From positions 1 to 23,584 of IMG/VR virus record IMGVR_UViG_3300044516_001853: 23,584 nucleotides of DNA; one strand, written 5' to 3'. The position numbers were made by a program, and so were the translations under genes. This document shows positions 1 through 22,395 of the stretch, in pieces (position 1 is the stretch's first letter; every line of letters starts with the position of its first letter). Source of the DNA: a virus. The notes under the pieces are model-generated. The model saw nothing but the letters and a program-made list of their open reading frames with translations. It was not told the DNA's origin and did no database searches.

Positions 1-300
1 ACAGCATCTGCAGTGCTAAAGATCATTGAATCAGGTGTTCCAAATGAAATTTACAATATTGCTGGTGGTTTTGAGCAATCAAATATAGATACAGTGAAAA
101 AAGTTATTGATTGCTATTTTGAAAAAGAAATTTCAGACTATGATCAATATATCAACTTTGGTTTGGAACGTCCAGGCCAAGACGTAAGATATGCTTTGAA
201 TGATGATAAAATTCGCAAATTAGGCTGGTCTCCATCTTGTAATTTTGATGAAGAAATAGTGAAAATTGTTGAACATTATAAAGGCAAATTCATATGGTAG
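1..300 (+). CDS. NDP-glucose 4,6-dehydratase, RmlB-like, C-terminal fragment (5' end outside window)
   Basis: This is the last 99 codons of an extended SDR sugar-nucleotide dehydratase. The frame is open to base 1, so the gene starts upstream and the GTG at 13 is not a start. Visible RmlB hallmarks are YNIAGG (about 52-69), which is the conserved YNIGG segment, and ERPGQDVRYAL (about 166-198), equivalent to the family's RPGHDRRYA substrate-binding strand. A KLGWSP segment and a final helix follow. RmlB enzymes use bound NAD to convert dTDP-glucose to dTDP-4-keto-6-deoxyglucose in the cytoplasm. The catalytic YxxxK and the Rossmann motif lie outside the window, so nucleotide specificity (dTDP, CDP or UDP) cannot be judged. 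The next gene starts inside its last codons with a 7-base overlap, which indicates one operon. The 4-keto sugar is a plausible substrate for the enzymes downstream. Confidence 0.88.
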   Translation, partial: TASAVLKIIESGVPNEIYNIAGGFEQSNIDTVKKVIDCYFEKEISDYDQYINFGLERPGQDVRYALNDDKIRKLGWSPSCNFDEEIVKIVEHYKGKFIW

Positions 301-1319
301 ATTCTTCTAACATTCAACTCCTAGACTGCACTTTGCGAGATGGAGGATATGTAAATAATTTTTCTTTTGGAAAAGAAAACATTTCTAAAATTGTGACTAA
401 TTTAAATTGCTCTGGGGTTGAAATAATTGAGCTTGGGTTTTTGAAGAATGGCGAACATTCCGCAGAACAAACACTTTTTAATTTTGTTGAAGAAGCGGAG
501 CAATTTGTAACAAATATTAGTCCTGAACAGAAATTTTGTTTGATGATTCGTCCTGACTGGTATGACATTAACAAACTAACACCAGCAGTAGGTAAAATTA
601 AGTCATTGAGATTTGCTTTTCATTTAAAAGATTTAGATTTATTGCTTGAACAAACAACTATTGCAAAAGATTTAGGTTATGAAATCATGGTAAATCCTGT
701 TAATATCCTAAGTTATTCACTAGATGAATTAAACTATCTACTTCCGATACTCAATAAAGTAAATCCAGATTGTGTTTCTATAGTAGATACTTTTGGCTCT
801 CTCTTACCAGCAGACTTAAATAGGATTTTTTCTATTTTTGATAATCTTTTAAATAAAGAAATTAAATTTGGATTGCATTTGCATGAAAATTTATCTATAT
901 CTTTAGCATTATCAATTATGTTTATTGAACTAATGCAAAACAACAGAAAGGGATATATAGATTCTTCTATTAATGGTATGGGTCGTATTCCTGGAAATCT
1001 TTGCACTGAACTTATCATGAATTTTTTGAATATAAAATCAAATAAAAACTATGATTTAAAACCTATTTATGATGTGATCGATAATCCTATTTCAGGTTTC
1101 AAGAAAAAAGAACCTTGGGGTTATATGCCTTCTTATGCAATAACAGCATATAAAAATACACATAGATCGTATGCAGAGTTTTTGATGAAAAAACCAGATA
1201 TGTCATTGAATATGCTTACAGACATACTAGATAAGTTAAAGACTACAGAAGAAAAAGAGAATTTTTCTGAATCTGTTGCTGAGTTTTACTACAAAGAGAT
1301 TGTTATAAATAATGATTAA
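294..1319 (+). CDS. DRE-TIM metallolyase / HMGL-like aldolase
   Basis: This 341-residue TIM-barrel protein belongs to the HMG-CoA lyase / 4-hydroxy-2-oxovalerate aldolase / homocitrate synthase superfamily. Residues 10-19 read LDCTLRDGGY, matching the family's D-x-T-L-R-D-G signature, in which the Asp binds the divalent metal and the Arg is catalytic. The metal-binding H-x-H is at H195 and H197, in GLHLHEN. The glycine-rich NGMGRIPGN loop follows at about residues 227-235. The length is near that of 4-hydroxy-2-oxovalerate aldolases. Such enzymes cleave or form C-C bonds next to a 2-keto acid, often pyruvate. The gene overlaps its upstream neighbour by 7 bases and the ThDP-enzyme gene downstream by 8, so the two probably act in sequence on a keto acid or two-carbon unit. 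The exact substrate cannot be read from the sequence. Confidence 0.85.
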   Translation: MVDSSNIQLLDCTLRDGGYVNNFSFGKENISKIVTNLNCSGVEIIELGFLKNGEHSAEQTLFNFVEEAEQFVTNISPEQKFCLMIRPDWYDINKLTPAVGKIKSLRFAFHLKDLDLLLEQTTIAKDLGYEIMVNPVNILSYSLDELNYLLPILNKVNPDCVSIVDTFGSLLPADLNRIFSIFDNLLNKEIKFGLHLHENLSISLALSIMFIELMQNNRKGYIDSSINGMGRIPGNLCTELIMNFLNIKSNKNYDLKPIYDVIDNPISGFKKKEPWGYMPSYAITAYKNTHRSYAEFLMKKPDMSLNMLTDILDKLKTTEEKENFSESVAEFYYKEIVINND

Positions 1320-3114
1320 AGTATCTGACTATATTGTTGACTTTTTACTAAAAAATCAAATTGATAAATGCTTTACAGTGACAGGTGGTGGAGCAATGCA
1401 TCTAAATGATAGTTTTGGCCACAACACTAATGTCACTAATATTTATTGCCATCATGAACAAGCTTGCGCTATGGCTGCTGAAGGATACACTAGAGTTTCT
1501 GGCATTCCTGCAATCGTTTCTGTTACATCTGGTCCAGGCACAACTAATGCTTTGACTGGTGTACTAGGTGCTTGGTTAGATTCTTTGCCTATGATTATTC
1601 TTTCAGGTCAAATGCAACTTAATACCACATTGAAATCAACTCCTTTACCATTGAGACAATTGGGTTTTCAGGAATTTAACATTATTGATAGTGTTAAGTG
1701 TATGACAAAATACGCAGAGATGGTCACTGATGCTAAGTATATTGCTTATCATTTAGAAAAGGCATTATTTTTAGCAGAATCAGCAAGAAAAGGTCCTGTT
1801 TGGTTAGACATTCCACTAAATATACAATCAGAACTAGTTGATGAAAACGATCTCGTACACTTCACTTTTGAAAGTGAAACTAAAGAACACTTTGTCAATC
1901 GAAAAACAATTTCAGATATTTACACAAAAATAAATGCTTCTAATAAGCCTGTTATTCTTGCTGGTTATGAAGTAAGGATGTCAGATGCTTATGAGGAATT
2001 TTTAGAAGTTGTTTCTGCCTTGAAAATCCCTGTTTTGACTGAATGGAATTCTAACGATCTTATTTGGAATGACCATGAATACTTTGGAGGTAGACCTGGC
2101 ACTATTGGGGACAGAGGTGGAAATTTTGTTTTACAAAATGCTGATTTTGTTTTAGCAGTTGGATGTCAATTTACTCTTAGACAAATAAGTTATGCTTGGA
2201 CAAATTTTGCTAAAAATGCATATAAAGTAGCAGTAAGTGCTGACAAGAATGAACTAATTAAAGCAACAGTGAAGATTGATTTCCCAGTTGAATCAAATAT
2301 AAAATCATTTTTATCTGAAATGATAAATCAAAAGTCTCTTGTAGCGAATCGAACTGAAAACACTAAGTGGAACAAATGGTGTAACAATCTAAATAATAAA
2401 TACCCAGTAGTTTTAGAAAAACATTATAATACTGAATCACCCCTAAGTGTTTACGCCTTTGTAGGTACTTTGTCGAATTTGTTAAGCAGCAATGATACGA
2501 TTGTTTTAGCAAATGGCGCTGCTTGTGTTGTTGGATTGCAAGCTACCAAAATAAAACAAAATCAAAGAATCTTTACTAACGCTGGCGCTTCTAGTATGGG
2601 TTATGGATTGACTGCCTCTATTGGTGCTTGTTACGCTAAACAACCAAAAGATAGGGTTATTTGTATTGAAGGTGATGGCTCTATCCAAATGAATCTTCAA
2701 GAATTGCAAACTGTTGTTCATAACAATTTGAATGTTAAAATTTTCTGGATTAATAATGATGGTTATCATTCAATAAAACAAACTCAAAATCTGATGTTTA
2801 AAGCAAAAGAAGTAGGCTTCTGTGGTGCAAACAAAAACAGTGGCATAAGTTTTCCATCTGCTGAGAAAATTGCTTATGCTTATAACTTACCATATTATAA
2901 GATTGAAAACACAAGTGATTTACAATTTGTATTAGAAGATGTTTTGAATAATGAAGGTCCATCAATTTGTGAAGTTATAACAAATCCTAATGAAATTTTT
3001 GAGCCTAAGTTACAATCTAAACTGCTTGAAAATGGCAAATTCTTTACTCCATCTTTAGAAGATATGTATCCATTTTTGCCTGAAGAAGAAATGAAAGAAA
3101 ATATATTTGAATAA
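1312..3114 (+). CDS. ThDP-dependent enzyme, acetolactate synthase large-subunit-like
   Basis: This 600-residue protein has the full three-domain layout of acetohydroxyacid synthase-type enzymes. The N-terminal pyrimidine-binding domain carries the catalytic glutamate at E49 in CHHEQACAMAAEGYTR. The central domain starts near residue 200. The C-terminal pyrophosphate-binding domain has the ThDP/Mg motif GDGS (454-457) ending in NN (481-482), with the usual spacing. Family members decarboxylate pyruvate and transfer the two-carbon unit to a carbonyl acceptor. In sugar clusters, a known relative is YerE of Yersinia, which adds an acetyl branch to a CDP-4-keto sugar. Being next to an aldolase and an RmlB-like dehydratase, with no branched-chain amino acid genes or IlvN-type small subunit visible, this gene more likely works on a sugar than in valine synthesis. 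That substrate assignment is inference. The start overlaps the aldolase stop by 8 bases, and the next gene follows after 2. Confidence 0.88.
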   Translation: MIKVSDYIVDFLLKNQIDKCFTVTGGGAMHLNDSFGHNTNVTNIYCHHEQACAMAAEGYTRVSGIPAIVSVTSGPGTTNALTGVLGAWLDSLPMIILSGQMQLNTTLKSTPLPLRQLGFQEFNIIDSVKCMTKYAEMVTDAKYIAYHLEKALFLAESARKGPVWLDIPLNIQSELVDENDLVHFTFESETKEHFVNRKTISDIYTKINASNKPVILAGYEVRMSDAYEEFLEVVSALKIPVLTEWNSNDLIWNDHEYFGGRPGTIGDRGGNFVLQNADFVLAVGCQFTLRQISYAWTNFAKNAYKVAVSADKNELIKATVKIDFPVESNIKSFLSEMINQKSLVANRTENTKWNKWCNNLNNKYPVVLEKHYNTESPLSVYAFVGTLSNLLSSNDTIVLANGAACVVGLQATKIKQNQRIFTNAGASSMGYGLTASIGACYAKQPKDRVICIEGDGSIQMNLQELQTVVHNNLNVKIFWINNDGYHSIKQTQNLMFKAKEVGFCGANKNSGISFPSAEKIAYAYNLPYYKIENTSDLQFVLEDVLNNEGPSICEVITNPNEIFEPKLQSKLLENGKFFTPSLEDMYPFLPEEEMKENIFE

Positions 3115-3116
3115 AT

Positions 3117-4511
3117 ATGAAAAATATCATTGATAAAGATATAAGTCTTTTTCTTCCAAAGAAATATAAATTTTTGTTATTGGGAGGCAATTTTTTGCTA
3201 TCCAAAAGACTTTATGAAATTGCAAAAAGACAATTTGAAATAAAAAGAATTGATTATGATTTCAAAAATACGGAAGAATACTTTCCTTGTATTGATAGTC
3301 TGGGTTTTGATATTTTTCTAGAACCAGCAAAAAAAATTCAAACAATAATAGACTTGCATAATTCAAATGTTTTAGTTTTTACAAGTGAAATATTATTGCT
3401 CTTAAATGAAACAAAGTTTCAAGAATTTATTGAAGTAATAAAAGACTTGAAGAAGAGAAATATAAGAATTGTTTTTTTGTCAATAATAAATCCTTTGCAC
3501 ATATGTAAAAACAAAGAGCAAGAAATTGAACTGACAAATATGATGTCAAAATCTTGGTACATTTCAAGAATTGTTTTATTAAAAAATTTACTTGACCTGT
3601 CAAAAGACTTGTTGTTTCAATGTTCTTCATTCATAACTTATGTGCGTTCTAATATTCAAGTAAATATTATTGACTTGGAAAAAACACAACAAAACTTTTT
3701 AACTTGCCCAGAAGAATCACATTTTGAATTTCCCATAAGTATTGCAGACGATATTATAAGCTCATTGATAAATAACATTGAACTAGTTGGACACTTCTCT
3801 TACAATGAACAAAATTCTAGACAGATACAAATGCGCTTTATTGAAGATTTCTTGAAAACAGACTATATTTGTAATTATGTAAAGACTCAATCATTATGCT
3901 CAGTAAACCTTATTTATCGCAAAAAATCTAGTGAAATAGAAAGAGATAAATCAATAGCAAACTGGAGATATGACTTAGGAAAAAATCTTGGTCAGAATCT
4001 TTCAGATGTAATCAAAAATGAAATTGACATAGTAATTCCTGTGCCTGAAACTGGAAAATATTATGCCCAAGGATTATCTAATATTTTAGAAAAGCCGTAT
4101 GTAGAAGCATTTTATAAAAAAACAGAGATTGGTAGAAGTTTTGATATTGCAGATGAAGAAAAAAGACAAAATTTTCTTCATTCAAAACTTGGAATATTAA
4201 GCGATTTAGTTGCTAATAAAGTCGTTGCAATAGTTGACGAAGCAATATTCACTGGGCAAACTCTAAAGCTCGTGAAGAGCTTATTAGACTCTTCATCAGT
4301 AGAAAAGATTTATTTTTTTATAGCAAGTCCCATTTGTTCCAAAAAATGTAATTTCAATATGATGCCTGATCGCAAATTGCTTTCCAGTGAGTATGGACAA
4401 GATGATATGGTTAGATACTTTAAAATCCAAGGTATAATATTTCAAGATTTAAAATCTTTCGAAGATATTTCTTTCGATGCTGGTTTTACTTGTACTAAAT
4501 GCTTTAACTAA
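3117..4511 (+). CDS. PurF-type phosphoribosyltransferase domain fused to a degenerate Rossmann/SDR-like N-terminus
   Basis: This is a 464-residue protein of unusual build. Residues 1 to about 230 resemble a decayed NAD-binding SDR: KFLLLGGNFLLSKRL (about 18-32) stands where GxxGxxG should be, and a later SKSWYISRIVLLK stretch recalls the YxxxK helix without clear catalytic residues. From about residue 285 the protein follows the C-terminal half of glutamine PRPP amidotransferase: IPVPETGKYYAQG (compare IPVPDSG), an IGRSF segment, the PRPP loop VDEAIFTGQT at 373-382 (compare VDDSIVRGTT), then FFIASPIC and GIIFQDLKSFEDI near the end. The N-terminal Cys-nucleophile glutaminase domain of PurF is absent, so ammonia would have to come from elsewhere, or another nucleophile is used. 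It ends with a CTKC pair. PRPP binding is likely; the product is unknown. It lies 2 bases after the ThDP gene. Confidence 0.72.
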   Translation: MKNIIDKDISLFLPKKYKFLLLGGNFLLSKRLYEIAKRQFEIKRIDYDFKNTEEYFPCIDSLGFDIFLEPAKKIQTIIDLHNSNVLVFTSEILLLLNETKFQEFIEVIKDLKKRNIRIVFLSIINPLHICKNKEQEIELTNMMSKSWYISRIVLLKNLLDLSKDLLFQCSSFITYVRSNIQVNIIDLEKTQQNFLTCPEESHFEFPISIADDIISSLINNIELVGHFSYNEQNSRQIQMRFIEDFLKTDYICNYVKTQSLCSVNLIYRKKSSEIERDKSIANWRYDLGKNLGQNLSDVIKNEIDIVIPVPETGKYYAQGLSNILEKPYVEAFYKKTEIGRSFDIADEEKRQNFLHSKLGILSDLVANKVVAIVDEAIFTGQTLKLVKSLLDSSSVEKIYFFIASPICSKKCNFNMMPDRKLLSSEYGQDDMVRYFKIQGIIFQDLKSFEDISFDAGFTCTKCFN

Positions 4512-4512
4512 T

Positions 4513-4902
4513 ATGAATGTAGAAAATTTTTTAACTGAAACTGAGCATAATTTAAATAACACCATCTGTTTAGATTTTGATGGTGTTATTCATAATGATG
4601 AGAAAGGTTTTTATGATGGCACAATTTATGGTGAACCTATTGAAGGTTCTCTTGAATCAATAAGAAGCCTTTCATCAAGATATAAAGTTGTAATATATTC
4701 TTGCAAATCTAATCCCAAAAGACCACTGGTAGATGGAAAAACTGGTACAGAATTAATATGGCAATGGTTAGAAAAGTACAACATTAAAGACTATGTATCT
4801 GACGTAACATTCAATAAACCTCATGCAATTGCGTATATTGATGACAAAGCAATTCGATTTGAAAATTGGAATCAAGTCAATAACTTTTTAGGAAATTTAT
4901 GA
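4513..4902 (+). CDS. HAD-superfamily phosphatase-like protein
   Basis: This is a small 129-residue HAD protein. Motif I is CLDFDGVIHND with D21 as nucleophile and D23 as general acid/base. Motif II is the Ser in VVIYSCKS. Motif IV is YIDDKAIRF near the C-terminus, giving the acidic metal ligands. Proteins of this size and layout, with a FDGxI start and a DDKAxxF end, are common in phages and are thought to dephosphorylate small metabolites. I chose the ATG at 4513, two bases after the upstream stop. An in-frame ATG at 4477 would add 12 residues without HAD features and overlap the phosphoribosyltransferase gene by 35 bases. Position directly after the PRPP-domain gene suggests it may remove a phosphate from that enzyme's product, but this is inference. 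The next gene overlaps by 4 bases (ATGA). Confidence 0.78.
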   Translation: MNVENFLTETEHNLNNTICLDFDGVIHNDEKGFYDGTIYGEPIEGSLESIRSLSSRYKVVIYSCKSNPKRPLVDGKTGTELIWQWLEKYNIKDYVSDVTFNKPHAIAYIDDKAIRFENWNQVNNFLGNL

Positions 4903-5681
4903 ATATTCTTATAACTGGAGGAGATGGCTATATTGCATCTACTTTGCAAATACATCTTTCAGCACATCACAATGTAACTTGTATTTCCAGAAAAGATTTA
5001 GATTTAACAGTTTCATCAGAAGTTAATACATTTTTTGAAAATAAGTATTTTGATGTTATTTTTCACTGTGCAATTATTGGTGGAAGTAGATTAAAAACTG
5101 ATTCATATTTTGAAATGGATTGCAATTTGAAAATGTATTACAACTTGCACCAACTCAAAAGTAAACATTTTGGCAAATTTATTACTTTTGGATCAGGAGC
5201 AGAATTACATTCTCCAGATACTCCTTATGGTTTAAGCAAATTAATAATCTGCAAGTCAATTTCAGAAACTAAAAATTTTTACAACTTGCGTATTTTTGCA
5301 CTTTTTGATGAGAATGAGTTAGAATCAAGATTTATCAAAGCGAACATAAAAAGATATATTGACAAAGATACAATGATTATTCACCAAGATAAATATATGG
5401 ATTTTTTCTACATGAAAGACTTCCTAAATATTATAGATTATTACGTCAAGAATGACTTTTGTCCAAAAGAAATTAATTTTACTTACAAAAATACTTGCAA
5501 ACTTTCAGACATTGCTGAGAACATAAATAACTTGAGCGATTATAAAGTTGATATTTCAGTAAACGAAAAAGAAATAGCATCAAGTTACTGTGGTGAGTTT
5601 AATCTAGATTCTATAGATTGTAAAATAATTGGTTTGTATCAAGGTATTTTAAATACATATAATGTTTTAAAACAAAGATAA
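4899..5681 (+). CDS. NAD(P)-dependent sugar epimerase/dehydratase (SDR), first of two
   Basis: This 260-residue extended-type SDR starts with the dinucleotide-binding motif ILITGGDGYIAS (3-14). The following acidic segment and the VIFHCA strand are typical of sugar-nucleotide epimerases, dehydratases and reductases. The active site shows FGSGAE (about 98-103) and YGLSK (about 112-116), which provide the catalytic Tyr and Lys. The overall look is closest to GDP-fucose synthase / WcaG-like reductase-epimerases, but at 260 residues it is shorter than the usual 300 to 330, with a reduced C-terminal substrate domain. It likely modifies an NDP-keto sugar made by earlier genes in this operon. The start overlaps the HAD gene by 4 bases, which supports translational coupling. 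About 32 bases separate it from the methyltransferase gene. The exact reaction is not deducible. Confidence 0.8.
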   Translation: MNILITGGDGYIASTLQIHLSAHHNVTCISRKDLDLTVSSEVNTFFENKYFDVIFHCAIIGGSRLKTDSYFEMDCNLKMYYNLHQLKSKHFGKFITFGSGAELHSPDTPYGLSKLIICKSISETKNFYNLRIFALFDENELESRFIKANIKRYIDKDTMIIHQDKYMDFFYMKDFLNIIDYYVKNDFCPKEINFTYKNTCKLSDIAENINNLSDYKVDISVNEKEIASSYCGEFNLDSIDCKIIGLYQGILNTYNVLKQR

Positions 5682-5713
5682 TAATCAATAAAATAAAAGA
5701 GTATAATAATTTT

Positions 5714-6370
5714 ATGTCCAGATTTGATACAGATTTAATTTTTAAGATAGATGATAAATGGTTTTGGCGTAAAGACGACCATAATCTCAAGACATTTAAT
5801 GGATTGTCAAGTGAAACAGACTTACTAGAGGTTGTAAAGCCTTATCTAAAAGGAAACAGAGTTGTAATCCAAGCAGGCGGAAACTGTGGGATGCAAGTTG
5901 TAAAGTTTGCCGATCATTTTGAAATGGTTTACACGTTTGAACCCGATCCAGTAAACTTTCACTGCTTGGTAAATAATCTTCCATACAATAATGTAATCAA
6001 ATTTCAATGTTGCTTGGGAGATGACCACAGAATGGTATCTATGACAACACTTCCAAATGAAATTGGTGGTTTCTATGTCAACCCGAATTATGGAACAACA
6101 CCAACATTAAGGATAGATGACTTAGCATTGAGCCATTGCGATTTCATTCAATTAGATGTTGAGGGATATCAACTATTTGCTTTGATGGGTGCTGTAAATA
6201 CAATCAAAAAATTCAAACCTGTCATTAGTGTTGAATTTGACTGGGCATTTAGATACAACGTAAATGTTGGTGATATTAAGTCTTTTATGGCAAACTTGGG
6301 TTACGAAAAAGTAGAAACTTACACTACTGATCACATTTACACATATCAAAATCTTTCTTTTAGTTTATGA
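5714..6370 (+). CDS. FkbM-family SAM-dependent methyltransferase
   Basis: This 218-residue Rossmann-fold methyltransferase has a short N-terminal lead and then the SAM-binding motif VVIQAGGNCGMQ (about 50-61), where most FkbM proteins have DVGANIG. The next acidic strand, YTFEPDPVNFHCL (about 73-85), binds the SAM ribose. DFIQLDVEGYQ (about 143-153) matches the FkbM LDVEG hallmark, and a PVISVEFD strand follows. FkbM proteins usually O-methylate sugars in antibiotics, capsules or lipopolysaccharide, and many phages carry versions with AGG in motif I. Its place between two SDR genes fits methylation of the sugar assembled here. It is the only gene in the cluster preceded by a real gap (32 bases). 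That gap contains TATAAT at about 5702-5707, which might be a weak internal promoter without a clear -35. The downstream start overlaps its stop by 4 bases. Confidence 0.85.
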   Translation: MSRFDTDLIFKIDDKWFWRKDDHNLKTFNGLSSETDLLEVVKPYLKGNRVVIQAGGNCGMQVVKFADHFEMVYTFEPDPVNFHCLVNNLPYNNVIKFQCCLGDDHRMVSMTTLPNEIGGFYVNPNYGTTPTLRIDDLALSHCDFIQLDVEGYQLFALMGAVNTIKKFKPVISVEFDWAFRYNVNVGDIKSFMANLGYEKVETYTTDHIYTYQNLSFSL

Positions 6371-7260
6371 ACATCTTAGTTACTGGTGCAAATGGTTTTT
6401 TAGGCTCAAATATATGTAATTTGCTGTCAAAAAATCATAACATTTATGCTGCCTCTAGAACATTTACTAAATTATCAAAACATAATATAGTCTGCATTCG
6501 TTCTGAAATGTCAGACTATATTACTTTAAACGAAACTATTAAAGATAATAAAATAGATACAGTTATTCATTGTGCTTGGATGGGAGGAAATTCATCTAAG
6601 GATACTAATGAATTGTGGCAAACAGAAAATATAAGCTACAGTACTATTCTATTAGAAGCTTGCGCAAAACACAAAATTAAACATTTTATTGGTTTTGGTT
6701 CATCTGCAGAATACGGAAATCAAAATACTAAATTCAATGAAGACACAACGTGTTCTCCAACTACAATGTACGGAGTTAGCAAAAATTGTTTTAAAATGAT
6801 TTCTGAAAATTATTGCAAATCTAATAATATTTTGCATAGTTGGATAAGGCCAGTATATACTTATGGCCCAAATGATGTAGAGACTAGACTGATACCAAAA
6901 GTAATTTTGTCATTACTCAAAAATCAAAATTTGACATTGAATAAATGTTCTGCTGTAGTAGATTACTTGTATGTTGAAGATTTTGCCAAAGCAGTAAAAA
7001 TTATTGTCGAAGAAAAACTTCAAGGCAACTACACTGTTTGTTCAGATGGAGAAATCGATATAAGAAACGTAGTTACATCTATATACAATAAAATAAATCC
7101 TTCTTGCGTACTTAACTTTGATGATGAAATTGAAGAAATAGGCCCTAAGTATGTTTGTGGTACATCTCAAAAATTAAGGTCAGTAAGTAACTGGTTTCCT
7201 GAAATAGATTTTGAACAAGGTTTAGAACAAACTATTTCTTATTTTAAAAAGTTCGTATAA
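6367..7260 (+). CDS. NAD(P)-dependent sugar epimerase/dehydratase (SDR), second of two
   Basis: This 297-residue extended SDR is of usual family length. It has VTGANGFLGS (about 5-14) for NAD(P) binding, VIHCAW, the active-site GFGSSAEYGN segment (about 115-124), and YGVSK (about 137-141) with catalytic Tyr and Lys. WIRPVYTYGPND (about 159-170) is the conserved RxxxxYGP strand that shapes the sugar-nucleotide pocket. It resembles WcaG / UDP-glucose 4-epimerase-like proteins. It shares fold and motif order with the gene at 4899 but is complete and clearly divergent, so the two probably do different steps. It overlaps the methyltransferase stop by 4 bases and precedes the glycosyltransferase by 7 bases. 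The substrate is probably the same NDP-sugar as for its neighbours (inference). Confidence 0.85.
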   Translation: MNILVTGANGFLGSNICNLLSKNHNIYAASRTFTKLSKHNIVCIRSEMSDYITLNETIKDNKIDTVIHCAWMGGNSSKDTNELWQTENISYSTILLEACAKHKIKHFIGFGSSAEYGNQNTKFNEDTTCSPTTMYGVSKNCFKMISENYCKSNNILHSWIRPVYTYGPNDVETRLIPKVILSLLKNQNLTLNKCSAVVDYLYVEDFAKAVKIIVEEKLQGNYTVCSDGEIDIRNVVTSIYNKINPSCVLNFDDEIEEIGPKYVCGTSQKLRSVSNWFPEIDFEQGLEQTISYFKKFV

Positions 7261-7267
7261 TGAGATT

Positions 7268-8077
7268 ATGAATAATCTGTTGCTTAATTTTTTACAAGGT
7301 GGTCGAATTCTAGAATCTTTAGATGCTGAAATTTATCTTTCATCTTTATCCAAGCTCAAAACATTTAAAAAACTTGTTTGTGTTTTTGATGTTCCAGCAG
7401 AACAGATCGAAAAACTTAAAAAATATTACGATTATGTAATCCCGGTTAATTCTGGACTTGTTCCTGTAAACTTTTGTTACTTAGCATACTTTAATTGGCT
7501 GTGTGAACATGGAAAGGACTTTGACTATGTAATGCACTGCGATATGCGTGATGTTGTTATTCAAAGAGACCCATTTCATTTTATGGAATCACATCCAGAT
7601 AAAGAACTATTTTTAGTTTGCGAAGGTATGAAGATTGAGGAAAATGATTGCAATCAGATGTGGCATGATTGGGTTCTTAATACAATAGTTTATAATAAAG
7701 AAAAGTATAGTGATTCATATGTTTTAAATGGTGGAACATATGGAGGGAAAACAAACGCTTTCTTGAATTATTGTACTCTCATTCTTACTGCTATGAATAG
7801 GAAGTACAACTATATTATTCCTGACCAGGCAATGTTAGGTTACTTGTATAGGCAACTTAATCAAAACCCAAATGTAATGCTTACACATCCTATGTCTGAT
7901 AACTTTTGCGCTACAGGAGAGGCAATTAAGAGAGATAATGTAACTGTTACTTTTGACGGTAAAAATGTCTGCACTGTAAACAATGAACCATTCTATCTAT
8001 TTCATCAATGGGATAGAACTATTTATGCAGACACTTTGAGACAAAAACAAGCGAATACTTTATCTTTTTCTATTTAG
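7268..8077 (+). CDS. putative glycosyltransferase with a DxD motif
   Basis: This 269-residue protein has features of a GT-A-fold, metal-dependent glycosyltransferase. The segment DYVMHCDMRDVVIQRDPF (about 92-109) contains a DMRD acidic motif after a hydrophobic strand, as expected for binding an NDP-sugar and a divalent ion. LNGGTYGGKTNAF (about 156-168) resembles the N-x-G acceptor or donor loop of such enzymes. IPDQAML and a late FHQWDR segment add further acidic and aromatic conserved positions. I see no signal peptide or membrane helix, so it should act in the cytoplasm. As the last gene of the sugar cluster it is the natural candidate to transfer the finished sugar to its acceptor, which is not identifiable here. 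Its stop codon overlaps that of the converging tail gene. The fold assignment comes from motifs only. Confidence 0.6.
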   Translation: MNNLLLNFLQGGRILESLDAEIYLSSLSKLKTFKKLVCVFDVPAEQIEKLKKYYDYVIPVNSGLVPVNFCYLAYFNWLCEHGKDFDYVMHCDMRDVVIQRDPFHFMESHPDKELFLVCEGMKIEENDCNQMWHDWVLNTIVYNKEKYSDSYVLNGGTYGGKTNAFLNYCTLILTAMNRKYNYIIPDQAMLGYLYRQLNQNPNVMLTHPMSDNFCATGEAIKRDNVTVTFDGKNVCTVNNEPFYLFHQWDRTIYADTLRQKQANTLSFSI

Positions 8078-15143: not shown

Positions 15144-18100
15144 TTACTTATTCCTCACAACAATTCTATCTGTTTCTGGGAATCCTAAAGTTGGCGTATT
15201 TATTTCAGACTGAGTTTTGCCAACTACAAGATAAGATAAATTTTTGATTTTACTTGCATTAATTAAGACGGGACTTATATCTGGTTCATAATAAAACGAA
15301 GAGTCAATATTATTCCAAGATACTTCTCCTGTTTTTCTCCATTCAGCCTTTATGGAATGATCATTTTGAGCATTGCAGAATTGAACTTTCAGATTAATAG
15401 ATACTGATGAGCCTGTTGCAACGTAGGAGGTTGTAAATGAATTTGTTGACTCATTTTTCCATTGATTAATATAAGGAGCATCTTGTTCATTGATAAACAA
15501 CTTTACTCCACCATTTGTAGTAACTCTAAAATCAAATGTGCTTCCAATAGAAGATTTTGTTATAAAATCTCCAACAATTTCTCCGTTGAAATAGTTTGAC
15601 TGACCTAACCCTGAAAAGTTAGAAATATCAAGTTTATTATGTGTACTTACCAAGCTTGATTTTTCATTAATGTCTAAATCGTTATAACTCCAATCTTCTT
15701 TTTTGTACCAACGAGAAACCCAAGTTGGAGATTTGTCAAGCTTAAAATAAGATGTATTCAATGTATCGTTTACGTAGTATCTTAGATATATGTGTATATC
15801 ATTTACTCGTTTTACAAACTTCATTGAATCATTTCCAAAATAGTATGTTGTATTTGCAACACCAGATGCATTACCGGATAGAAAAACCTTATAGTTATTA
15901 TTTGATTGGTCGTAAATAATGTTTGTAATCGCTATACCAGATGACAAAGATGAACTTGTTACTCCTAATCCAATCATTACAATATCATCAAAATTTTGAC
16001 CATAAATGTTGATTTGATTAGAACCTGATGCTCCAGTAGCAGCAATACCTGTAAATCTGTTTAGCAAACTTCTTGGATAAATTCTCATCAAGCTTGGAGT
16101 GAAAACTTCTTTATTGTTCAAAGAATAAAAACCATCAACAAAATAGTTTTGAGTTGCTCTAGTTTTATTTGCTTGAGCCATGATTAAGTTGGTATTTTCA
16201 TAATCCCTGTTAAACGAAGCATATATTTCTTCTTCATTTGTAAAGAATATTCTATAAGGAGTCCCTGTTTGATAACTCCATTCGTAACCATTGTAAACTG
16301 CAATATTTTCCACTGTAGGAGATGACTCTTGTATTGCAATGTTGAAAGAATATTTAATTACATAATTTTGATTTGATAATGTAGCACCTGTGCTTGCAAT
16401 TGTCATTGTGCTACTAGATCCAATGCTACTTATTGTATACCAGTTTGAAACTTGTGAAGCAGTCGTAGCACCAATGCCAATTTGAGAATTCGCAAGATAA
16501 TTTTCAAAAACTGTATTAGTGTTGTTTGCTGGGTTAAATACGCCACTTATTTGAGAATCATTTACATCTACAAGCCCTTTGGTATTTTGATCGTAAATAG
16601 GAGGCGTAGTGTTTGATTCAAGTACCATCCAATATGTTCTGTCTTTTGTTAGAGAAAAATTAATATAGAAATAAAAATCTTTCAAAACGTTTTCTATATT
16701 TGAATAGTAAACTTTTGAGCCTGTGCAAAGTTTATTTGATGGCAAATTTTCATAATTGTCATAAATAGAACATTGTATATAAGCGTCATTGTTTAACCAT
16801 AATGAAGTTTTAGACAATTTCATTTTGAAAGATTTTATGTCTTGCTTTTCATTTGAAGTAAACTTGAAGGCAATTTTTTGATAGTTTAGATTCTTAGTGT
16901 TTGCTGTTGAAGAAACGTTGATACCAACTGAGTTTTCAACTTGCATTTGTTGTTTCAAGACATTTTCAATTGAGTTCACAGAATTATCGGCTGTGCCATA
17001 GCCTGATACACAAACAAGGAATGAATCTGAACGTAAATCGTCTATGTTTTTAGGGGTATAGAACTTTGTATCTCCTACACCACCTAAAACTTTTTCAATA
17101 TTTGAGAACCAGTAAGGTTCTCCAGAATTGTAATCTGAAACAGTTACGCCTACTTCGTCTATTCCATTAAATAAATTTGGAATTGATGAAGTGTCTGAAG
17201 AATAGAATGACTTAGTTAACTCATATTCTGCAACGCTATTGTCAATTTGAGTTTGTGTAATAGATGGATTTGTGGACTTCAAGTCGTTTACAAAGTCTGT
17301 TTTAGAGATTTTGGTACTATCAACTGGGGCAACTTGCTTCATTGCAATATTGCGATTTTCTCCCATTTGCAAATCTGCTATGATTGCTGAATTGCCAAAT
17401 AGTCTATAAAGATCAATGCTGTTCAAAGTGCCTTGTGCAGCGTCTTTTTGTTCTTGCGAAGAGCCTTTTTTGAAATAACCATCTAAAGATAATTTTTTAT
17501 TTATTCTTTGAAGATATTCTTGATCTGTTAATAAATATTTACTTGAATTTAAGAAAAGATTTTTGATAATAAAGTTTTGATTTGTATCGCTAAATTTAAT
17601 AGACAAAGAATAATCTTTAACTAACTTGTTACCAGAATCTAAATGGTTTGTAATATTTTCAAGAAATTTATTCTTTTGATAAACTTCAAATTCTGTATTT
17701 GTATTAAGTTGTTGATTATTTATATAAATACCGTCATTAGAGTACTCAAAAAAGTTTGTTGTTGGAGCCTTTATACCTAAGTCAGATATTGAATTGACTC
17801 CTGGAATATCTAACTCTATAAATCCTGGTTCTAATGTTTCGATACTATTTTTTATCTTAAAGTTAATATCTGAAACTGTCTTTTTATATTGACTTTGCAA
17901 AACTAAATATGTGTTGCTGTTTATGCTTGAAACTATTCCATAAAGGACTGTTCCGTCATTGCTGTAAAGATAGTCGCCGACACTTAATTGGGTTAAAAAA
18001 CTTGTATTTCTACCAATAACTACATCAGTTCCACCATTAATGCTTATTGTTCCAAAACAACTAATAAAATCATTATTGCTTCTAAGTAAGTCAGTATTAG

Positions 18101-19841
18101 GGTATTTCAAAAGATTGTGCAATAACTGAAGATTATTTGGGCTTAAGCTTGTAATATTTTGTGAGCCTCTTGATTTGAAATTAGAAAATGGCACAATTAA
18201 TTTTGACATCAGAGAATCAAAGTATTGAAGAAAATCTGTATTTCTTGTAAATTGTGTAAATGCTAAAATTTCTTGCAAACTAAAATTTATAAAATCTGTG
18301 TCTCCAAGAGAAGGCACAGCGAAGTTATTGGCTTTTCTTTCGATATAAACGATTGATGCATTATTAATATTATAAGATGTATTACTTACTTTCTTAATTG
18401 TCCCGGATGTTGACAATGATGGGTAAGTTAATATTAACTTAGCAATTACATTGTATTGTTGATCTATGTCTGGGTAATTATTAAACTCACTCCAATTTGA
18501 TGGAGCCATTGTACTAGACATAGGCTTTCCAAAAAATAAAAATATTTCATTGTCACCATCTTCAAATTCATTACCAGAAATAATGTTAGTTGAAGTGATA
18601 ACTAATGGTATAAATTCATCTTTTCTCAAGGAATAAAAATTACTTAATGAATTGGTATCGCCAGTTGAAGCCTTGTCTATTGTTTCAGGATATACATATC
18701 TAAAAGGAGACAATGTGTAAGGATTATCTCCATCATAAAGTTTATTATTAGTTTTATTTTGTGAAAACAAATATACTTTATTGTCATTTACACCAGTTTT
18801 ATCAAATGTCAAATAGTTCGTAATATCTTTTTGAAAATATGTTTTTCTTGGGAATATATACCAAGAAGAATCTAGTGTTGAACTATTGAAAGTTGTTGCT
18901 GTGCCGGAAGTGTATGTGGGTAAAGAATTTTTGAAAAACAAATCATACGATTCCCAATAAAAACCAAAATGCAACCAATAATTATTGGGCCAAGTTGTTG
19001 GAGTCTTAACTTTAATAAGATAGTTGTCTCTTATTCTTGCAGTTGTACTTCCAGTGCTATTGGACTCTTGTATACTGTATGGCATCAATGTCAAAGCAAT
19101 ACCTGACATTGAACCGCCTAAAGAAAATGTTGAACCAATACCTTGCGTAATAAGGAACTGGTGAGAGTATATCGCAAAATCTTTAGGTGTATTTGTTCTT
19201 GGATCAATATGCAAGCAATTATCAAAGTAAGATTTTGGAATAATAATTCTTGCTTCATCGAAACTAGAGGACCCGGTTGTATTTTTTAACGAAATCCATC
19301 TTGAAGAATTAAATAAATTAACCTGAGTATATCCAGTTCCTGTGTATCTTACTGGGTAGGTATAGTTTGCCCTAGATTGTCCAGTTCCAGGTTCAGAGTT
19401 AATATTATAAATTATATAAGAAGTGTTTGCAACTCCAGCAGAATTATAAGGTGGTAAAAAAGATGACCAAGCGTTGTAGTCATAAACTCCCCATCCTTCA
19501 GTTGTTGGAGGATTGTGATATTCTGGAGTCCAATTTCCAGTATTTGCAAAACCTGCAATCTTGGAATCTACAGAATACTCTCCACCTTGAAAGCCAAAAG
19601 ATATATTTTCATTGGAGTTGTAAACTTGATACGGAGTTGTTACTGAACCTGTTAAAGTTTTACCAGCCAAATCGTAGTCATGAAAGATTGTTGAACCTTT
19701 GATTTTAGGAACAATTGCTTCATAGTCCAAGAACAAACCTCTATTCACAGTCAAATCACCAACCAAATTTTTATAGATATACTTGGCTTTTCCGATTTGA
19801 TCTATTATGAACTTAAGTCCTTTTCTTTTAACTTGACTCAT
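15144..19841 (-). CDS. giant modular virion protein with PA14-like domain, possible adhesin or receptor-binding protein
   Basis: This is a 1565-residue protein, the largest in the window. The N-terminus (1-60) carries a basic helix and strands. Residues about 60-590 are beta-rich and full of Ser, Thr, Asn and Tyr, as in fibres. Residues about 600-665 form a small barrel-like module (VVIGRNTSF, SVGDYLYS) seen in many phage structural proteins. A helical, charged segment spans about 770-900. Residues about 1005-1077 resemble a jelly-roll domain (WLNNDAYIQCSIYD, then RTYWMVLE). About 1280-1350 is a repeat-like strand module with NQINIYGQNF. Residues about 1371-1522 match the PA14 fold: FDFRVTTNGGVKLFIN with KLFIN as core strand, then SIKAEWRK. 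PA14 domains often bind glycans. No enzymatic motif is apparent. A glycan-binding surface role is likely but unproven. The next gene follows without a gap. Confidence 0.62.
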   Translation of the reverse strand: MSQVKRKGLKFIIDQIGKAKYIYKNLVGDLTVNRGLFLDYEAIVPKIKGSTIFHDYDLAGKTLTGSVTTPYQVYNSNENISFGFQGGEYSVDSKIAGFANTGNWTPEYHNPPTTEGWGVYDYNAWSSFLPPYNSAGVANTSYIIYNINSEPGTGQSRANYTYPVRYTGTGYTQVNLFNSSRWISLKNTTGSSSFDEARIIIPKSYFDNCLHIDPRTNTPKDFAIYSHQFLITQGIGSTFSLGGSMSGIALTLMPYSIQESNSTGSTTARIRDNYLIKVKTPTTWPNNYWLHFGFYWESYDLFFKNSLPTYTSGTATTFNSSTLDSSWYIFPRKTYFQKDITNYLTFDKTGVNDNKVYLFSQNKTNNKLYDGDNPYTLSPFRYVYPETIDKASTGDTNSLSNFYSLRKDEFIPLVITSTNIISGNEFEDGDNEIFLFFGKPMSSTMAPSNWSEFNNYPDIDQQYNVIAKLILTYPSLSTSGTIKKVSNTSYNINNASIVYIERKANNFAVPSLGDTDFINFSLQEILAFTQFTRNTDFLQYFDSLMSKLIVPFSNFKSRGSQNITSLSPNNLQLLHNLLKYPNTDLLRSNNDFISCFGTISINGGTDVVIGRNTSFLTQLSVGDYLYSNDGTVLYGIVSSINSNTYLVLQSQYKKTVSDINFKIKNSIETLEPGFIELDIPGVNSISDLGIKAPTTNFFEYSNDGIYINNQQLNTNTEFEVYQKNKFLENITNHLDSGNKLVKDYSLSIKFSDTNQNFIIKNLFLNSSKYLLTDQEYLQRINKKLSLDGYFKKGSSQEQKDAAQGTLNSIDLYRLFGNSAIIADLQMGENRNIAMKQVAPVDSTKISKTDFVNDLKSTNPSITQTQIDNSVAEYELTKSFYSSDTSSIPNLFNGIDEVGVTVSDYNSGEPYWFSNIEKVLGGVGDTKFYTPKNIDDLRSDSFLVCVSGYGTADNSVNSIENVLKQQMQVENSVGINVSSTANTKNLNYQKIAFKFTSNEKQDIKSFKMKLSKTSLWLNNDAYIQCSIYDNYENLPSNKLCTGSKVYYSNIENVLKDFYFYINFSLTKDRTYWMVLESNTTPPIYDQNTKGLVDVNDSQISGVFNPANNTNTVFENYLANSQIGIGATTASQVSNWYTISSIGSSSTMTIASTGATLSNQNYVIKYSFNIAIQESSPTVENIAVYNGYEWSYQTGTPYRIFFTNEEEIYASFNRDYENTNLIMAQANKTRATQNYFVDGFYSLNNKEVFTPSLMRIYPRSLLNRFTGIAATGASGSNQINIYGQNFDDIVMIGLGVTSSSLSSGIAITNIIYDQSNNNYKVFLSGNASGVANTTYYFGNDSMKFVKRVNDIHIYLRYYVNDTLNTSYFKLDKSPTWVSRWYKKEDWSYNDLDINEKSSLVSTHNKLDISNFSGLGQSNYFNGEIVGDFITKSSIGSTFDFRVTTNGGVKLFINEQDAPYINQWKNESTNSFTTSYVATGSSVSINLKVQFCNAQNDHSIKAEWRKTGEVSWNNIDSSFYYEPDISPVLINASKIKNLSYLVVGKTQSEINTPTLGFPETDRIVVRNK

Positions 19842-19844
19842 TTT

Positions 19845-20621
19845 TTAATATGCAGTTGTTGGAACATTATCTGGGCCGAAATAAAGTTGCCTGACAAGTT
19901 CTTTAGCCCTTATTGTAATAGTTCCATTTCTAAAAAGTTGTCTGTTGGTAGCATCATCAGATGATTTAATATCATTGCACATTACATCATAAAGCATTCT
20001 GACTGGTTCAACATTATCAGTTCTCATTCTTAAGATGTTGTTTCTTGCAGTAGTTCCTAAGTTTGTTACAGTCACTCCTGCGCCAACATCATTGTACATT
20101 CTGATAAATGCTTCAGCCGCTAAACCTGATGCTGGCAGAGAAGGAGCAGATATATCAGGATCGTGTGTGTCACTCCATAAATTGTTAAACTCATTAGTTA
20201 CAGTTGTAACATAAGTAGACAATATATTGTTGTGATCAACTGTAAAGTGCTGAGGATTTAATGTAAACTTGTTGCAAATTGGACAAGTGTCAACAATCCA
20301 CATCCTTCTATGCTTTCTAAGAACAGACAATACTATTCTTGTTGCTTCTTGAGTGACTCTTTCCGTTGTTTCAATATTGTCTGCACCAACAGAAATATCA
20401 ATGGTCAATGAGTGTTCAAATTCTTGAAGTCCAAAAGCAATATCTTTCAGTGGTGAACTTGAGCCTTTAAAAGTGAAAGAAATTCCATTAGGCTTTACTG
20501 CTTGCTCGCCAATATAAAATCCGGTGACAGGTCTATCAAAAATAACTAATTGGTTTTTAGCATTTTTAGGTAACTCGTGATATAAAATACCACGCAAGGT
20601 ATCATAAACTTTTTCAAGCAT
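19845..20621 (-). CDS. tail terminator / tail completion-like protein
   Basis: This 258-residue protein looks like a tail terminator of the kind that caps the tube and joins it to the head. The N-terminal half shows VIFDRPVTGFYIG (about 27-39), then FEHSLTIDISVGA (about 68-80) and a long helix with many Arg residues up to residue about 106. This is the alpha/beta layout usual for gpU-like and neck proteins. A short insertion CPICNKFTLNPQHFTVDH (about 112-129) holds two Cys and two His spaced like a small zinc site, which is unusual for the family. The C-terminal part (about 175-258) is an extra helical region. It lies 10 bases after the connector gene and 3 bases before the giant gene. The terminator call rests on fold pattern and position. 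Confidence 0.5.
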   Translation of the reverse strand: MLEKVYDTLRGILYHELPKNAKNQLVIFDRPVTGFYIGEQAVKPNGISFTFKGSSSPLKDIAFGLQEFEHSLTIDISVGADNIETTERVTQEATRIVLSVLRKHRRMWIVDTCPICNKFTLNPQHFTVDHNNILSTYVTTVTNEFNNLWSDTHDPDISAPSLPASGLAAEAFIRMYNDVGAGVTVTNLGTTARNNILRMRTDNVEPVRMLYDVMCNDIKSSDDATNRQLFRNGTITIRAKELVRQLYFGPDNVPTTAY

Positions 20622-20631
20622 AATATGTCAC

Positions 20632-21126
20632 CTATTGATTTTGACCCTTGGATCTTTTGCCTTCAGTAGGATTTATAGAAATACCTCTCAGCGTAGACCT
20701 AACGAATCTGTCACCTCTAAGATTTCTTTGTCCAAATAATCTAATCTCACCATTTTGAATACGAACAATTTGGTTTTGTGCAAAATCAAACCTAACTTTT
20801 TGAGCTTCGGAATATTGTTGATCTGAACCTTGTAATGCTTGCATATAAAACATTTGTGCTGCTAAGATTGCACATATAACTGGAACTGGATTAGGGTAAG
20901 ATACATCTCCACCCATATTTACTTGTTTAAGCGGGACATCATAAATTGTTGCCAAACTAGCATCAATATCTGCAGAAGCTTGTTGAATAAAGAAATCAAT
21001 ATTTATATTAGACGCAGACTCAGGAGTAGGATTTCTAAAATTAGGCACAGGATTATCGCCTTCTGTTACAACGTTAGGCGGCAAATATTGTTTCACGTCA
21101 CTTACTGAACAATAAGATCTAGGCAT
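20632..21126 (-). CDS. head-tail connector protein, DUF1320/gp36-like
   Basis: This 164-residue, mostly helical protein follows the pattern of head-completion connectors. It opens with YCSVSDVKQYLPP (about 5-17), equivalent to the family's Y-x-T-x-x-D-L start, then has a helix ending in ASADIDASLATIYDVPL (about 50-66), which matches the hallmark A-x-x-x-IDS-x-L-x-x-RY-x-x-PL of DUF1320-type proteins. A helical bundle with QMFYMQAL follows. The C-terminus is basic (RSTLRG, GKRSKGQNQ), as expected for a protein facing packaged DNA in the neck. A loop with several Pro and Asn residues (about 22-40) is longer than usual. Its ATG shares its A with the upstream stop. Such proteins form a ring below the portal. 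Position next to the terminator-like gene supports the role. Confidence 0.65.
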   Translation of the reverse strand: MPRSYCSVSDVKQYLPPNVVTEGDNPVPNFRNPTPESASNINIDFFIQQASADIDASLATIYDVPLKQVNMGGDVSYPNPVPVICAILAAQMFYMQALQGSDQQYSEAQKVRFDFAQNQIVRIQNGEIRLFGQRNLRGDRFVRSTLRGISINPTEGKRSKGQNQ

Positions 21127-21803
21127 TATACTTCTCCAGATTGAGGATTGAGATATTTTGGTTCATAATCGATACCTTGCTCTTCGTGAATAAATCCCAT
21201 TTTTACGGCATTTTTCCTCTCAATGAGTGTAAAAACGTTAGTTTTTTCTAACTCATTTGCTGAAGTTGCCCCGGATGAAACAAATCTTGGAAAATCTATA
21301 TCGATATCTCTGTATCCACCAACTTGTGCGTTAAAAACTTCTACCGCATCAGGTGCATACAAACTTCCTTGCAATCTATTGATTTTTTGCCCGATTGCTT
21401 TTGTTACATTTGTTGCCATTACAAATCCACCTTGCTTGTGTGCATACTCACACGCTTTATCAATGGTGAGATTTTTTGGCATTGGTTTTGTGAGCCTGTA
21501 TATGAAGAGAGACTCTTTATCCCTACAAATATACGTTTGACCAGGAACGACAGCAATATCCATTTTTTGTTCAATAGACATTTGCTGTGCTTTTAATCCG
21601 ACAGAAGGATCATCTGCTGAAAGTATTCCTACTATGTCAAGCCCATTAATGATTGCTGATGTAAGAATAGATTTTATGGTTGAATCTAAATAATCTACAT
21701 TTGCAAACTGTTCTTCTTTGTCGATGAATATGCAAAGATCTACTCGTAAAACATTTTTACGAATAGCAACACATTCTTTAGCAGTTTTGTACCAAGGAGA
21801 CAT
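21126..21803 (-). CDS. PHP-domain-like protein lacking metal-binding histidines
   Basis: This 225-residue protein tracks the PHP (polymerase and histidinol phosphatase) fold along its length, but the metal ligands are changed. VDLCIFID (21-28) stands where DLHxHS should be, and GILSADD (59-65) where ITDHD should be. The block after VVPGQTY (about 85-91) lacks the usual Glu. GGFVMATN (about 125-132) replaces the G-x-x-x-AHP segment. AVEVFNAQVGG (about 153-163) matches the well-kept IEVYNA strand, and SSGATSANELEKTNVFTLIE (about 176-195) aligns with the SDAHxxxELG-TxIE end segment. So the scaffold is retained while catalysis is probably lost. The gene is inside the head-tail joining block, 37 bases after the zinc-ribbon gene and overlapping the connector gene by 1 base. 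A virion or assembly role is likely. The PHP relation is a reading by eye. Confidence 0.6.
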   Translation of the reverse strand: MSPWYKTAKECVAIRKNVLRVDLCIFIDKEEQFANVDYLDSTIKSILTSAIINGLDIVGILSADDPSVGLKAQQMSIEQKMDIAVVPGQTYICRDKESLFIYRLTKPMPKNLTIDKACEYAHKQGGFVMATNVTKAIGQKINRLQGSLYAPDAVEVFNAQVGGYRDIDIDFPRFVSSGATSANELEKTNVFTLIERKNAVKMGFIHEEQGIDYEPKYLNPQSGEV

Positions 21804-21840: not shown

Positions 21841-22395
21841 TTATCTTTTATTTCCACAGTCTGGGCAGAACTTTTCCATTCCAGGGAAACTATATCCGCA
21901 TTCAGTGCAAAATTTCGGCATTTGAGCGGTGCCACATTTTAAACAAAATTTAGCATCTTTGGGAAGATTGTACATGCAGTCTTTGTTCAAGCAATTCTTA
22001 AACAATTGTTCTTCAGCTTGCTTACGTTCAGCAGTACCATCCATTTCATCAAGTTCATTTATCAATGCTTCAAAGTTAACATTATTTGGTGAGATATTTA
22101 ATTTTTCTTCTTCTACGAGAGAATTTGACTCGTACTGCTCTTCAGGTTCAAAACTTTCAGAGAGAGGCCTTTTTTCTGCCCATTTTTTGAATTCTGGACT
22201 GTCGAAGACGCTACGCTTGGGTTCAGCACTAACTGCGCCAAATTCATCGATTTTCAGGTCAATTTCTTGGTCTTGCATTACCCTTTCGTCCCCAAGAACT
22301 GTATGCCCAAACTTATTTACCTTTGGTTTAGGCATATCTTCTCGAAATGGGTTTGTGAATGATGCTCTTAGGGATTTGATTTGTTCTTCGTCCAT
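21841..22395 (-). CDS. double zinc-ribbon protein
   Basis: This is a 184-residue protein with an acidic, probably flexible N-terminal two thirds and a C-terminal double zinc ribbon. The first ribbon has CLNKDC (C-x4-C) and FCLKCG (C-x2-C); the second has FCTECG and FCPDCG (both C-x2-C), ending in NKR. That gives eight cysteines for two zinc ions at about residues 133-182. The N-terminal part is rich in Glu, Lys and Pro (EPEEQYESNSLVEEEK) and has no hydrophobic core. Such ribbons usually mediate binding to protein or nucleic acid rather than catalysis. It lies 12 bases after the acidic 145-residue gene and before the PHP-like gene. A scaffold, portal-binding or regulatory function is possible. 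The start at 22395 has only a poor Shine-Dalgarno sequence. Confidence 0.7.
   Translation of the reverse strand: MDEEQIKSLRASFTNPFREDMPKPKVNKFGHTVLGDERVMQDQEIDLKIDEFGAVSAEPKRSVFDSPEFKKWAEKRPLSESFEPEEQYESNSLVEEEKLNISPNNVNFEALINELDEMDGTAERKQAEEQLFKNCLNKDCMYNLPKDAKFCLKCGTAQMPKFCTECGYSFPGMEKFCPDCGNKR

Follow-up and report, generated by a model that had tools for sequence, protein, structure and literature searches.

The connector proteins of tailed phages have usually been traced to a few small viral folds. In PHP proteins the metal ligands number nine, in the order H, H, D/H, H, E, H, C/H, D/N, H (Barros et al., PMC3666897). These ligands are retained in RNase AM (Rnm/TrpH/YciV) and the minimal PHP proteins of the TM0559 type (7ug9, 9etk, and 2anu), all of them known or predicted enzymes. 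E. coli Pol III alpha has a variant PHP domain in which five of the nine are replaced and which binds no metal (PMC3666897). The protein described here has its best structural matches in RNase AM and the TM0559-type proteins, with the same order of strands and motifs and a core of about the size of that of RNase AM once the RNase AM insert is removed. In contrast to these proteins, its mapped ligands are all replaced, it has additional N- and C-terminal segments, and its gene lies in a phage connector operon. Like the Pol III alpha PHP domain, it may have kept the PHP fold without catalysis for a structural purpose, and Arg is a common substitute for ligand His in both that variant domain and this family; however the PHP of Pol III alpha is a domain of a polymerase, while here it is a free-standing protein that has lost more ligands and is encoded next to an adaptor. 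A free-standing inactive PHP protein tied to a phage adaptor appears to be new, and searches of open-access full text turned up no report of any PHP protein within the neck of a phage.

The gene comes from a 23.6-kb virus record, the whole of which (23,584 nucleotides) is referred to here as the window. The original prediction described its product as a PHP-fold protein that has lost its catalytic histidines, and the peptides on which that description was based are all present: DLCIFI (residues 22-27), ILSADD (60-65), the GG strand (125-131), EVFNA (155-159), and SGATSANELEKTNV (177-190). The plus strand across 21126-21803 is broken by stops. The 24 homologous contigs, the dN/dS values, and the exclusively PHP top structural matches confirm that the open reading frame and its PHP-type character are more than chance. 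The gene and its segments are as follows.

21126 to 21803, minus strand: putative PHP-fold pseudoenzyme gene, 225 aa (ORF call, AlphaFold2, Foldseek, homologues)
21720 to 21749, minus strand: motif I position LRVDLCIFID, residues 19-28 (PHP: DLHxH; ligand His at C24 and F26 by alignment columns)
21609 to 21635, minus strand: motif II position IVGILSADD, residues 57-65 (PHP: ITDHD; profile-profile register)
21531 to 21551, minus strand: motif III position VVPGQTY, residues 85-91 (PHP: PGxE; the Glu is T90 in the window protein)
21405 to 21467, minus strand: helix and GG strand TIDKACEYAHKQGGFVMATNV, residues 113-133 (PHP: ..GGxxVLAHP; the ligand His aligns with N132)
21327 to 21353, minus strand: strand PDAVEVFNA, residues 151-159 (equivalent of PHP dgiEvyN)
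21243 to 21287, minus strand: motif V position RFVSSGATSANELEK, residues 173-187 (PHP: GSDAH)
21150 to 21218, minus strand: conserved C-terminal extension, residues 196-218, ending G...YxPxYL (invariant residues in homologues)

Modeling with AlphaFold2 from 14 close sequences gave a pLDDT of 63, and the top Foldseek match of that model was the PHP domain of RNase AM (7ug9). With 18 homologues, including divergent ones, the pLDDT was 84.7 and the pTM 0.82. When the 18-homologue model was compared with the PDB, ranks 1-15 were all PHP structures: RNase AM 7ug9 at the top (E 1.6e-6), six chains of T. maritima TM0559 (2anu, E 6e-6 to 6e-5), and EndoQ, V. cholerae RNase AM (9etk), BAD_1165, and the PHP domains of Pol III alpha and PolC. 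The model is a distorted alpha/beta barrel like those of PHP structures, with moderate TM-scores of about 0.47-0.52 (about 0.5 for stand-alone PHP proteins), so the PHP likeness is clear but distant. In the Foldseek viral library the named top matches are phage DnaE-type polymerases and phage G gp329, and the top 16 include no target close to 225 aa in length. Two contrary outcomes had been named in the original prediction, a structure unlike PHP barrels and top matches to an unrelated neck family; the model is PHP-like, its top matches are to no such family, and the claim of a PHP fold is supported by the AlphaFold2 model, Foldseek, and the homologue alignment.

Statistical support for PHP membership from the sequence itself is modest, suggestive rather than decisive. 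Profile-profile comparison with the RNase AM family core scored 30.5; the best of 400 column shuffles reached 26.5, the reversed profile 16.1, and two unrelated neighbour families 12.6-13.9. In an earlier alignment against RNase AM the real score was 31.2 and one of 200 block shuffles scored 31.5, and the HH probability on sequence alone is 22-26%. The hhalign register against RNase AM extends from motif II to the iEvyN strand, with motifs I and V aligned in the global alignment, and a PDB profile search placed 2anu in the correct register (E 0.69). Profile matches to a histidinol-phosphatase PHP alignment and to a DnaE PHP domain alignment (two sequences only) were not significant. The order of PHP motifs along the chain is kept, as had been proposed, both in the hhalign register and visibly in the most divergent copy, L284 (LRSDIH / PGQE / GGFAVIMQP / GIEVYS / TSGSKT), which is, to judge from these motifs, a half-decayed PHP sequence.

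The homologues were gathered in three steps. Two IMG/VR scans yielded 16 contigs at 56-100% identity. Next, 80 loci with related capsid genes were collected with the major capsid protein (phrog_2522) of a related contig, and 45 of the whole records to which these loci belong were searched with the profile, which yielded five divergent members (hmmsearch E 1e-90 to 4e-33). Lastly, three more contigs, one of them 479 kb long, were found through the neighbouring adaptor. The resulting 24 IMG/VR contigs with the PHP-like gene, down to 28% identity, are exactly the 24 that carry the adaptor, and all of the homologues are from uncultured viruses. Single-sequence searches of Pfam, NCBIfam, and the PDB with the 225-aa protein gave no significant match, and the curated PHP family model PF02811 matched none of the members tried at any E-value. 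With four members of the family as queries, tblastn found no homologue in 50,697 phage records, nor did a search of bacterial and archaeal genome contigs with the window protein. The PHP-like gene was likewise not found in phage G, Tunturi_5, Myrna, or LR745208; Myrna gp119 was considered as a counterpart and dropped on reading its sequence. The profile was also unmatched in viruses with capsid proteins 57-65% identical, which is weak evidence because many of these records are fragments. In Bacillus phage G, gp27 is 47% identical to the major capsid protein of related contigs, but the searched data contain no detectable PHP-like homologue or recognisable adaptor. The sheath gene of phage G is gp178 (PMC8570332), and the block before it has no match to the profiles of the present family in record positions 125000-174999 and 86000-125000 (L316). 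Among known neck and head-completion families (PHROGs, Pfam), the only matches were phrog_32482 and unnamed weak ones. The match to phrog_32482 (named PhoH-like, 589 positions) is weak and collinear (E 0.0012, residues 64-219 against positions 93-247); the PhoH ATPase part, placed at positions 406-548 by matches in other phages, is outside the part matched here, and a further family sharing this domain may lie behind the match.

The metal ligands were mapped with the nine-ligand table (PMC3666897) and the profile register, that is, by alignment and not by superposed coordinates. At ligands 1, 2, 4, 5, 7, 8, and 9 the window protein has C24, F26, A63, T90, N132, T180, and A182, and none of these seven confidently mapped ligands is kept. 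Ligands 3 and 6 are less surely mapped (near E31 and S98), and neither is His or Asp in the window protein, whose sole histidines are H122, within a helix, and H206, at a site that varies. Among 21 distinct homologues, ligand 1 is Cys in 15 and Arg in 4, with one Ala and one His; ligand 2 is F, Y, W, or A; and ligand 4 is mostly P, with A, R, T, E, N, and D also found. Ligand 5, the motif III Glu, is T, S, V, E, or D, with Glu in three and Asp in two (five divergent homologues); ligand 7 (H/C) is N, D, E, or Q; ligand 8 (D) is T, R, A, or K; and ligand 9 (H) is A, G, or P and never His. The predicted replacement of the metal-binding residues is thus seen at every mapped ligand of the window protein, and a check of the homologues for kept histidines found the full set in none, L284 having at most one His and the Glu. 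The Glu of EVFNA, counted among the PHP elements in the original prediction, is invariant in the family yet outside the nine metal ligands, which corrects that account. D22 and D166 are invariant together with this Glu (E155), and Q89 and D170 nearly so, in homologues down to 28% identity.

The nine-ligand centre of a catalytic PHP protein is therefore not present in the window protein. Because the metal centre has been dismantled, a canonical PHP enzyme role is very unlikely for the 225-aa protein, and catalysis is presumably absent, given the lost ligands and the precedent of the variant, metal-free PHP domain in E. coli Pol III. In two of the largest contigs there is, in addition, a separate gene for a polymerase of about 1090 aa that matches PF02811 strongly (E 5.8e-42 and 2.6e-44).

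G002:C1:90483-91019 (L030): DnaE-type polymerase with PHP domain, PF02811 match
G001:C1:96262-96798 (L031): DnaE-type polymerase with PHP domain, PF02811 match

The visible PHP motifs of this polymerase (HLHAHTH, ITDHG, GIEVY, and NDVHY) look intact, so that a single genome retains one PHP and has dismantled the other.

The original prediction placed the gene next to connector genes, and the association is far stronger than could be seen from the window: the PHP-like gene is immediately upstream of the adaptor in all 24 contigs, in overlapping frames in nearly all. The neighbouring features of the window are as follows.

20632 to 21126, minus strand: head-tail adaptor, Mu gp36-like (PF07030), 164 aa, always the next gene
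21134 to 21137, minus strand: Shine-Dalgarno-like GGAG for the adaptor, inside the PHP-like gene and followed by a TAATG stop/start overlap
19845 to 20621, minus strand: conserved 258-aa protein, next in the operon, a neck or tail-terminator candidate (synteny)
21841 to 22395, minus strand: double zinc-ribbon protein (C-terminal), upstream, 184 aa
22408 to 22845, minus strand: 145-aa protein, upstream, less conserved (synteny)

The adaptors are 161-164 aa and match PF07030 in seven of seven tested, as well as phrog_195; the phage Mu gp36-like family is that of the obligate next gene and not of the PHP-like protein. In 23 contigs the end of the PHP-like gene and the beginning of the adaptor gene share 1, 4, 8, or 20 bases, and in the remaining contig the two are 8 bases apart. 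The overlapping frames show coupled expression, not physical contact. The gene is thus part of a conserved connector operon, in which the upstream zinc-ribbon and small protein genes are less constant than the PHP-like/adaptor pair. Pairwise dN/dS of the PHP-like gene is about 0.06-0.11, so the protein is maintained by purifying selection. In matched pairs its divergence is similar to that of the next connector-block gene, while the adaptor evolves more slowly (PHP-like versus adaptor identity of 81 vs 97% and 67 vs 90% in the same pairs). Both ends of the protein have residues that are invariant in the 21 distinct homologues and lie outside the PHP catalytic motifs: W4, R15, K16, and R20 at the N-terminus, and R196, G210, P215, Y217, and L218 in the C-terminal extension. 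These N-terminal (W...RK..LR.D) and C-terminal (R...G...YxPxYL) segments are candidate docking segments.

A PHP fold with its mapped ligands lost, encoded beside an adaptor gene, suggests that an old enzyme is now probably a building or assembly part. The reading that we favour, at somewhat better than an even chance, is a PHP pseudoenzyme recruited to the connector operon that docks on the adaptor and stays as a neck component. A free-standing PHP-fold protein would have descended from a metal-dependent phosphoesterase, had its metal centre dismantled, and come to be encoded in the head-tail connector operon within a jumbo myovirus-like lineage. It would be co-translated with the Mu gp36-type adaptor of the next gene, the coupled translation giving matched amounts of the two proteins, and the compact barrel would most likely use its conserved N- and C-terminal segments to dock on the adaptor ring or beside it, and be kept in the neck. 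We infer both that the protein is present in the virion and that it binds the adaptor. More tentatively, and at a little under an even chance, the former phosphoesterase may have become a stoichiometric neck block, for instance a collar or ring seated on the Mu gp36-type adaptor, in a widespread lineage of uncultured jumbo phages. The invariant adjacency and the stop/start overlap would also suit a cognate chaperone, an assembly factor that associates with the adaptor (or with the 258-aa neighbour) while the neck is being built, maintains its partner's solubility or brings it to the portal, and is absent from the finished particle. Faster evolution than that of the adaptor would fit such a role, but the PHP-like protein diverges about as much as the next connector-block gene, itself presumably structural, and no chaperone-like sequence feature was seen; we consider an assembly factor unlikely.

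It is improbable that the protein is an altered but active enzyme, or a ligand-binding protein, with its pocket rebuilt from other polar residues. Position 132 at ligand 7 is always polar, Q89 is kept in distant homologues, and the similarly kept acidic set of D22, E155, D166, and D170 could serve an unrecognised activity; however ligand positions 1, 4, 5, and 8 vary freely, no homologue has the full ligand set, and PHP proteins in general keep the equivalents of D22 and E155 for reasons unrelated to metal binding. An ordinary connector protein of another alpha/beta fold, with an accidental PHP likeness, would account for the missing PF02811 match, the low HH probability, the weak PhoH-like PHROG match, and TM-scores of only about 0.5, but is very improbable given fifteen PHP structures in the top fifteen, the consistent motif register, and the motifs of L284. 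If the favoured reading of an adaptor-docked pseudoenzyme is true, it provides a clear example of enzyme capture for the building or assembly of virions, with the gene fixed beside that of the adaptor and with homologues that display different degrees of active-site decay. A PHP label in a phage genome need not indicate an enzyme.

Several other features of the window and its relatives were observed. The zinc-ribbon protein (window 21841-22395) is kept in most relatives and not in the most divergent. Extra genes are found inside the virion operon at L286:2988-6974 and L287:10482-16877, upstream of the small-protein and zinc-ribbon genes; the PHP-like/adaptor pair is unbroken by these insertions, and two of the L286 genes were tested and have no Pfam family. 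Directly after the connector genes, a 1565-aa protein (15144-19841, minus strand) is poorly conserved and has no profile match; its provisional name as the sheath was dropped for want of profile support. Facing the virion operon of this jumbo phage fragment, a sugar/ketoacid gene block occupies window positions 1-8077 on the plus strand, with these genes identified by Pfam.

294 to 1319, plus strand: HMGL-like aldolase
1312 to 3114, plus strand: thiamine-diphosphate enzyme
3117 to 4511, plus strand: phosphoribosyltransferase
4899 to 5681 and 6367 to 7260, plus strand: two NAD-dependent epimerases
5714 to 6370, plus strand: FkbM methyltransferase
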